A stretch of 64,000 nt of DNA from Glaciozyma antarctica PI12. Lineage: Eukaryota > Basidiomycota > Microbotryomycetes > Kriegeriales > Camptobasidiaceae. Under the pieces are notes generated by a model that made no database searches, was not told where the DNA came from, and saw only the letters and a list, made by a program, of their open reading frames with translations. Positions 57,211 to 59,018 of this stretch are shown piece by piece. The translations under genes were made by a program, and so were the position numbers. The stretch lies in assembly GCA_002917775.1 (NCBI GenBank), contig KZ627161.1, positions 1,112,467-1,176,466 of the forward strand, written 5' to 3'. Numbering within the stretch: the stretch's first letter is position 1; every line of letters begins with the position of its first letter.

Positions 57211-59018
57211 ATGACCTCGTTCAAGTCCACCATCGCCTCTCTTGACGCCGCCGTCAAAGGAGAGATCAAGCTTCCCGCTACTCAGCTCCCGCCTCTCTCG
57301 CCTCCCTCGTCCACCAAGGCGCCGTCGCTCGCTGGATCGGACGTCGCCACCGATCCCGTCGAGGACTACAACGGAGCGTACCGCTTCGCCCCCATCAAGG
57401 AACACCACGTCGCGAGGGCCATGTCCACTCGTTACGGTGCCGACCTCGTTCGTACTGCGGTGTCCGACATCGTGATCGTTGGAGGTACGTCTTCCACACA
57501 GCGATGAACGCAAACAGCTCGCTTACAGTGTGGCTCTCTCGCAGCTGGAAGCGCTGGTCTCTCCGCCGCCTACACTCTCGCCAAGGCCCGCCCTGATCTC
57601 TTGATTACCATCATCGAGGCCGGTACGTTTCTCCGCTGGTATTCTGCTCCTCCAGGTGTGCTAACCACCGTATCTCTGTCGCAGGAGTTGCCCCTGGTGG
57701 AGGAGCCTGGCTTGGTATGTTGATCTCTTCCCTGCGGCTTCCGGCCTGAACTAACTCGTTGCTCTGCACAAACAGGTGGTCAGCTCATGAGCCAGATGGT
57801 CGTTCGCAAGCCCGCCCACCTCTTCCTCGAGGAGCTCGGCGTTCCTTTCGAGGACGAGGGAAACTTTGTGCGTCGTCAAGTTCCGAGCGTTTCGACCTTC
57901 GCACGAAGCTGACGAGTGACCCAGGTCGTCGTTCGCCACGCCGCCCTCTTCACTTCCACGGTGCTCTCCAAAGTTCTCCAGGTCCGTACCGTGTCTCTCG
58001 CGCTCCTCTTCTGCGTCCTCGATCGGTTCTCTTCGAGTCCGCGTCGTCGAACCTCCTCCTCCCCTTCCTCCCCGTCCCATGCAACACCGGTGCTTGCCTT
58101 GGTGTCGCTCTTCTAGAGCCACCGGGCTCGCTGAGATCACACGGTCAACCAGCGGATCACGTCAATGCGTGCGGCGCAAGTTTGCAATCATTCTGAGACT
58201 TCTCTCCCCTGCTTCCAGTTCCCCAACGTCAAGCGTAAGGCTTTGCGTTCCGTGATATATTCTTTTGAACGCTGCTAACGACGTACTGGGGGCCCAGTGT
58301 ACAACGCTACCTGCTGCGAGGACTTGATCACCATTCCCGACGTCCTGGGGTCCGGTCAGCTTCGTATCGTGCGTTCTGGTTTCTCTCCCTCGACTTTGGA
58401 CAAGCATACTAATTGTCGCTCGCAGGCTGGAGTCGTCACGAACTGGACTCTCGTCACGCTCGCCCAGTTCGCACCCTTCTCTCATGTCGGCGTTGAAGCG
58501 AGCTGACTGTTGCGACCTCTACTCTCGCAGCGGTCTCCAGAGCTGCATGGACCCTCAGACGATTACCGCCCCGCTCGTCCTGTCTTTCGCTGGACACGAC
58601 GGCCCATTCGGCGCGTTCTCCGTCAAGAGGCTCGTGGCGTGCGGCCAGATTGAGAAGCTTGGCAACATGCGTGGCTTGAACATGTCGACCGCCGAGGACT
58701 ACAGTACGTACATTCATCGTCTTCGTTCTTGTCGAACGCGAGCTGATTCCATCGCAGTCGTCAATAACACGCGCGAGATCGTGCCTGGCCTCATCACCGG
58801 CGGCATGGAGCTCTCCGAACTCGACGGTGCCAACAGGATGGGCGCTACGTTCGGTGGCATGCTCGGTTCTGGGATCAAGGTGCGTTGCGACGTGCGGCTG
58901 GGGCGCACCACCTGACGATTTCGCATTCCAGGCCGCCAAGGAAGCCCTCAAGCTCTACGACTCGTACGAAATCGAGGAGGGAGAGGTCATGGGCCTCAAG
59001 GCGTCTATCAAGGCTTAG
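57211..59018 (+). CDS. THI4: Thiamine thiazole synthase THI4
   Basis: A suicide enzyme making the thiazole half of thiamine from NAD+ and glycine, donating sulfur from its own cysteine. About 345 residues over ten or so exons. Start at 57211 ([20 protein letters not shown]). Motifs: [20 protein letters not shown] (dinucleotide binding, split by an intron), [53 protein letters not shown] with the sulfur-donor cysteine at about 188, [38 protein letters not shown] and [20 protein letters not shown]. The intron at 57982-58218 (237 nt, others 45-70) carries a TPP riboswitch; retaining it brings an in-frame TAG at 58114. So expression is very likely shut down by thiamine through splicing. Confidence 0.95.
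57982..58218 (+). other. Regulated THI4 intron housing the riboswitch
   Basis: Donor gtccgt and acceptor cttccag bound a 237-nt intron, roughly four times the usual length here. Its length is a multiple of three but it contains an in-frame TAG at 58114-58116, so retention truncates THI4 just ahead of its catalytic cysteine. ACCGTGT at 57988-57994, seven bases into the intron, is perfectly complementary to ACACGGT at 58139-58145, which includes the 3' strand of aptamer stem P2. Confidence 0.75.
58079..58187 (+). promoter_or_regulatory. TPP riboswitch aptamer inside a THI4 coding intron
   Basis: Thiamine pyrophosphate aptamer by primary motifs and pairing. P1: TGCAA (58080-58084) with TTGCA (58182-58186). 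P2: ACCG (58086-58089) followed by the TGC of the family, with CGGT (58142-58145). P3: an extended hairpin GGTG..GCTC with GAGC..CACC around 58100-58125. Then the invariant CTGAGA at 58131-58136. The second arm holds GGATCACG, TCAAT and GCGTG (P5 with AAT in the loop region) and GCGCAAG. P4 pairing is the weakest part and differs from the bacterial consensus. The aptamer ends about 31 nt before the 3' splice site at 58218. In fungi such switches act on splicing. Confidence 0.82.

Follow-up and report, generated by a model that had tools for sequence, protein, structure and literature searches.

Does the fifth intron of the THI4 gene in the window, by which we mean the whole 64,000-nt stretch of DNA that was analysed (GC content, 60.1%), hold a TPP riboswitch, and if so, how might such an element control the expression of the gene in which it resides? 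With ten GT...AG introns removed, the exons from 57211 to 59018 form one unbroken frame of 346 aa, and the predicted protein matches the Pfam family Thi4 (1.7e-96) and TIGR00292 (1.4e-78) and, in PDB, the Thi4 chains of yeast and Neurospora (3jsk, 1.4e-117; 3fpz, 4.8e-100; 4y4l, 5.7e-100). Nine of the introns are 52-64 nt long, whereas intron 5, at 237 nt, is about four times longer. It separates coding exons 5 and 6, and its placement is fixed by the junction, VLQ followed by FPNVK, because the homologs share the motif VLQ-x-PNVK; skipping of exon 6, the exon that comes next, would shift the frame and bring in a stop at codon 187. Residue C225 aligns to residue 205 of yeast Thi4, that is, to Cys205, which is the sulfur source of the yeast enzyme (PMC4215014) and reads Ser in the solved-chain sequences 3fpz and 4y4l, so that the predicted protein is a thiazole synthase of the Cys type. 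The first-pass annotation had placed the sulfur-donor cysteine in the exon directly after intron 5, which turned out to be mistaken: C225 is encoded in exon 9, the fourth exon after the intron, the very next one being the 16-nt exon 6, and neither of the two cysteines of exon 7, C188 and C189, aligns with the sulfur donor.

Several features of the surroundings can be put on record here. A run of 21 C (59068-59088) is found some 50 nt after the THI4 stop codon, and a neighbour converging on THI4 from the minus strand (59313-60092) encodes, in two ORF pieces, an adenylate-sensor domain of SNF1-like kinases. Two plus-strand open frames of the window, 35442-38267 (942 aa) and 42496-45150 (885 aa), are without a Pfam match above the curated cut-off; PDB searches with two ORFs of the window besides THI4, the latter of these frames being one of them, gave no match.

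Within intron 5, the motifs that the annotation had listed are all present, in the order of a TPP aptamer, between 58080 and 58186 (Table 1): the CTGAGA motif, GATC...GCG around P4 and P5, and the closing helices P1 and P2 accompanied by TGC. The role of GAGAU is pyrimidine recognition (PMC5882874). The two guanines that are said to pair at the pyrophosphate site, G58155 and G58173, are spaced by 18, the G-G spacing given for fungal TPP aptamers (PMC5882874). Loop L5 reads CAAU rather than UAAU, a departure by one base (U to C) that we did not count as an exclusion.

Table 1. Features of the THI4 gene and of the riboswitch-bearing intron, in window coordinates
Feature	Position	Strand	Details
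THI4 gene, start to stop codon	57211..59018	+	11 exons, 346 aa; exon model
Riboswitch-bearing intron 5	57982..58218	+	phase 0, 237 nt; donor GTCCGT, acceptor CTTCCAG
5' splice-site stretch, candidate pairing	57981..57997	+	possible partners 58152-58158, 58140-58145, 58133-58136
Donor-like GTCCGC	58037..58042	+	if used, 55 extra nt, frameshift and stop at codon 279
TPP aptamer, P1 to P1'	58080..58186	+	RF00059, model R1, P1-P2-TGC string
P1	58080..58084 TGCAA / 58182-58186 TTGCA	+	5 pairs
P2	58086..58089 ACCG / 58142-58145 CGGT	+	4 pairs
TGC after P2 5' strand	58091-58093	+	
Extended P3 hairpin	58094..58130	+	37 nt; retention stop TAG 58114-58116 in loop region
CTGAGA	58131..58136	+	pyrimidine-recognition motif GAGAT at 58133-58137
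P4-P5 arm	58152..58177	+	L5 TCAATG
P4 GCG/CGC	58152-58154/58175-58177	+	
GATC	58155-58158	+	
P5 CACG/CGTG	58158-58161/58168-58171	+	
GCG	58171-58173	+	
Likely branch point CTGAG	58193..58197	+	motif search; A 58196 is 22 nt before intron end
Exon 6	58219..58234	+	16-nt microexon (FPNVK), directly 3' of riboswitch-bearing intron 5
Exon 9 with C225	58531..58703	+	position of sulfur-donor Cys205 of yeast Thi4

Would the standard covariance model for TPP riboswitches recognize this element? At the gathering cut-off of RF00059 (54.3 bits), there were no Rfam gathering-level matches in the 64-kb window, and a permissive Rfam search up to E 10 reported no TPP match in either 601 nt or 251 nt around the element. 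In a search with 131 nt, RF00059 aligned its positions 1 to 105 with 58076-58197 at 24.3 bits (E 0.0035 over 4227 families, or about 4e-4 when recalculated, by our own arithmetic, for one family over 64 kb). In the covariance check that the first-pass annotation had suggested, the model does find the aptamer when given 131 nt, but the score stays below the cut-off, and in the longer pieces the model is silent. With the cut-off where it is, such a match alone is insufficient for a call. We regard the cut-off as a cautious limit of detection because RF00059 has been reported to fail often on fungal aptamers with a long P3, typically above 60 nt (PMC11683625); however, since P3 in the THI4 intron is only 37 nt long, the length of this hairpin explains the low score only in part.

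Given the sub-cut-off score, we built an independent model, R1, from the 3' halves (CTGAGA to just past P4') of 56 prokaryotic TPP aptamers among the matches listed in a pattern scan of prokaryotic genomes (alignment A1); P4 and P5 are the only pairs that the model contains. The best R1 site in the 64-kb window is 58131-58181 (30.7 bits, E 5.7e-5), followed by 39941-39979 on the minus strand (12.5 bits, E 0.41), and the same two sites come out on top when 20000-64000 is searched with the filters off. Around the second-best site (39890-40020), no Rfam match up to E 10 was found, and we take that site to be a chance match. By design of the scan pattern, 19 bases are constant throughout the prokaryotic set; the element in the window has 18 of these, the lone miss being the U to C change in L5, along with the A before P4, a base that the pattern leaves free but that all A1 sequences share. 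All seven P4/P5 pairs are formed in the window element, and four of them have both bases changed compared with the commonest pair in alignment A2, which consists of 17 prokaryotic sequences and the window element. The 5' half of the aptamer provides separate support because it is outside R1: the string of P1 5' strand, P2 5' strand and TGC, in the right order and with the right spacing, appears in 48 of 20,000 dinucleotide shuffles of 57982-58130, P2 with TGC alone being common (1065 of 5000 shuffles). The RF00059 match, the R1 score and the 5' half jointly uphold the original proposal that a coding-region intron of THI4 carries a TPP aptamer.

What, then, would be the consequence of retaining this intron? 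Intron 5 amounts to 79 codons and is in frame, and the stop at 58114 that had been predicted to follow from retention is confirmed on our exon model, being the first in-frame stop, a TAG in the P3 region; the retention product would be 221 aa long, 177 of them Thi4, and would lack C225. We reject this stop as a sign of design because an in-frame stop is also carried by 4025 of 5000 shuffled versions of the intron. Among the 17 GT sites listed from 57982 to 58180, the GTNNGT fit is seen at 57982 only, and G at +5 is found, in addition, at 58037 (GTCCGC), 58169 (GTGCGG, which leaves 50 nt) and 58180 (GTTTGC, which leaves 39 nt). At the other end of the intron, the likely branch-point motif CTGAG begins 7 nt past the end of P1'.

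The predicted folds of this RNA are of interest with respect to both the aptamer and the donor. The free RNA is predicted to prefer a different fold, at -43.2 kcal/mol versus -35.5 kcal/mol with the aptamer helices enforced, a preference of 7.7 kcal/mol; in this fold, CGCTG (58129-58133) pairs with CAGCG (58150-58154) and so occupies part of CTGAGA and a strand of P4. The free fold is 2.13 sd below the shuffles, 6 of 200 of which are as good. Such a predicted competing fold is what one expects of a switch, but also of a chance GC-rich sequence. The stretch at the 5' splice site, 57981-57997, could pair in order with P4/GATC, P2' and the GAGA of CTGAGA at -22.1 kcal/mol, a level reached by 2 of 500 shuffles and, among natural controls, by 608 of 18,243 window tiles (3.3%), 281 of the 9103 on the plus strand, 9 of 248 tiles from the THI4 gene and 250 of 12,628 GC-matched tiles; in the reverse comparison, 383 of 4890 tiles reach it, and among the nine other 5' splice sites of THI4, one (57623, -26.3 kcal/mol) exceeds the pairing of the intron 5 donor.

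The predicted strength of this pairing depends on how much of the upstream exon is folded along. In 12 folds that start at the donor or within 22 nt of it, the P4/GATC and P2' pairings have mean probabilities of 0.60-0.97, versus 0.00-0.24 in nine folds that take in at least 32 nt of exon 5; for the CTGAGA part (58133-58136), the probability is 0.00-0.02 in all folds. The drop occurs because a perfect 6-bp hairpin (57957-57962/57988-57993) that spans the exon 5/intron 5 donor competes for the same bases; its exon strand, CACGGT, is identical to 58140-58145 in the P2' region. The donor is unpaired at 0.07-0.25 in the free RNA versus 0.48-0.91 with the aptamer enforced when the folds start within 22 nt, but once 32 nt or more of the exon are included, the respective values are 0.43-0.50 and 0.50, and those for the branch point are 0.34-0.39 and 0.35-0.40. 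The folding predictions alone, then, show no donor switch, because with that much of exon 5, enforcing the aptamer hardly alters the accessibility of either the donor or the branch point. Hence the predicted pairing of 57981-57997 with the aptamer core is suggestive only, and taken alone, it would make the productive donor inaccessible in the absence of TPP, which is the wrong sense.

These observations bear on several ways to interpret the element. A chance resemblance, unrelated to TPP riboswitches, might be read into the lack of a gathering-level Rfam match in the window and of any TPP hit in the 601-nt and 251-nt pieces, but the E value of the 3' half over 64 kb, the separate support from the 5' half and the location in THI4, of all genes, make this interpretation almost certainly wrong. 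A subtler possibility is that the aptamer is kin to working TPP switches but has decayed, with TPP binding or control of splicing lost. The low RF00059 score, the U to C change in L5 and the more stable competing fold all fit decay; nevertheless, the retention of nearly all pattern bases and of every P4/P5 pair, including the four double changes, along with intact P1 and P2, renders it decidedly unlikely.

The remaining alternatives concern not the aptamer but what it does to splicing. By analogy to the Neurospora NMT1 mechanism, which is a precedent for the use of an alternative donor (PMC5997356), the P4 strand (GCGGAT) could cover 58037 when TPP is absent, whereas TPP, by folding P4, would free this site, with the outcome given for it in Table 1, namely, a frameshifted product. 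The site does have G at +5, and six pairs with the P4 strand are possible; however, it is without the T at +6 of GTNNGT, there is no in-frame stop between 57982 and 58037, and its pairing with the 3' half of the aptamer is no better than chance (398 of 500 shuffles are as good), so that we reject the pairing at this proximal donor and deem donor choice of this kind unlikely. The opposite sense of regulation, in which strands of the free aptamer would cover the donor at 57982 and TPP would promote splicing, gains some credence from the donor accessibilities in the folds beginning no more than 22 nt away from that site. Yet the difference is gone once at least 32 nt of exon 5 are included, feedback would call for the opposite direction, and thiamin acts as a repressor in all the cases from fungi, algae and plants that PMC5997356 reviews; we consider this sense highly improbable.

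The interpretation that we favour, and hold to be probable, is that the THI4 coding-region intron contains a TPP riboswitch through which TPP lowers productive splicing of intron 5. The host gene counts for a riboswitch because THI4 is one of two biosynthesis genes, NMT1 being the other, and these are the only ones that PMC5882874 gives as being under riboswitch control in fungi; TPP control from coding introns elsewhere, with unspliced RNA raised by thiamin, as described in PMC5997356, counts for this reading as well. The repressive sense we infer from the precedent of the Neurospora gene NCU01977 and the common logic of thiamine repression. At low TPP, the aptamer would remain outside its ligand-bound fold, and the intron from 57982 to 58218 would be spliced out, yielding a functional Thi4. 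When TPP is plentiful, the aptamer in its folded state would reduce splicing from 57982, such that the intron would be wholly or partly kept; the frame would then end at 58114, or else shift, giving the 221-aa fragment without C225 and probably leading to decay of the mRNA. The least certain step of this putative mechanism is the one from aptamer to splice site. Our first choice is that the pairing of 57981-57993 with the aptamer strands would be lost, in the manner reported for NCU01977, where, according to PMC5997356, the first donor is used more in the absence of TPP owing to pairing next to it; along an alternative route, the branch point just after P1' might be crowded by the folded aptamer. 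A more specific proposal, which we rate as rather unlikely, is that the productive 5' splice site itself might be the expression platform: 57981-57993 is complementary to P4/GATC and P2', and 57994-57997, less convincingly, to GAGA, so that ligand binding and donor pairing would be mutually exclusive, in an intron that is followed by a 16-nt microexon.

How does this element compare with the known TPP switches? With the RF00059 THI element, it shares P1, P2, P3, P4 and P5 in order, as well as TGC, CTGAGA, GATC and GCG, and differs from it in the sub-cut-off score, in CAAU for UAAU in L5 and in the P3 of 37 nt. The annotation had presented the location between coding exons as out of the ordinary, and this was overstated, given that TPP switches in internal introns of fungi are an already described class (PMC5882874, PMC5997356), comprising Types II and III in the classification of PMC5882874. 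Type III as described there is found in internal introns of 200-400 nt, and the THI4 element, whose internal intron measures 237 nt and interrupts a biosynthesis gene, with the aptamer just before the acceptor, resembles it; but Type III has an in-frame stop between donors S1 and S2 upstream of the aptamer, whereas here there is no clear second donor, and because no in-frame stop precedes the one within the aptamer, intron 5 does not belong to Type III in the strict sense. With the Type II switch of NCU01977 from Neurospora crassa, it has in common an aptamer in a coding intron and a possible pairing of an aptamer strand beside the first donor; that gene, however, encodes a urea-type transporter, its type is described with introns of 650-900 nt, and there an alpha element pairs with P1', whereas in the 237-nt intron of THI4 the candidate partners are P2' and P4. 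The Type I switches of Neurospora crassa THI4 and NMT1 likewise control splicing, and for THI4 the gene family is the same, but these are described as lying in 5' UTR introns and involving upstream ORFs, in contrast to the location between coding exons 5 and 6.

Two further cases invite comparison. In Candida parapsilosis DUR31, as described in PMC5997356, a TPP aptamer is also present in a coding intron, and thiamin increases the amount of unspliced RNA, which has a premature stop; unlike THI4, that gene encodes a transporter, a second donor is used, and the stop is between the two donors. The switch that PMC11683625 reports from Rhodotorula mucilaginosa, a member of Basidiomycota, shares with ours the THI4 gene, a TPP aptamer and, probably, a basidiomycete host. 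Further context on splicing control and on mid-gene switches of algae can be found in PMC7404189 and PMC4260697. A literature search of main texts by taxon retrieved no paper on a TPP riboswitch under Microbotryomycetes or on a thiamine riboswitch under Pucciniomycotina; under Rhodotorula, PMC11683625 was the relevant one, and under Rhodosporidium, judging by titles and the opening of abstracts, none dealt with the subject. Thus, the location, the gene and the logic of the intron 5 switch all have precedents, and for this reason, we regard it as one more example of a described kind of fungal switch.

What the locus probably adds is a TPP switch in a THI4 coding intron of a probable basidiomycete yeast, in a phylum from which PMC11683625 reports a THI4 switch of one named species. 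The basidiomycete origin was put forward in the first-pass annotation, and both the GC content and the abundance of short introns agree with it. The locus also presents an aptamer that RF00059 misses at the usual cut-off and with the usual filters. Should the donor indeed act as the expression platform, a second donor would be dispensable, in contrast to the layouts of Neurospora NMT1 and NCU01977, and proof of the pairing at the 5' splice site would make the THI4 intron a compact, testable model of ligand-controlled splicing.
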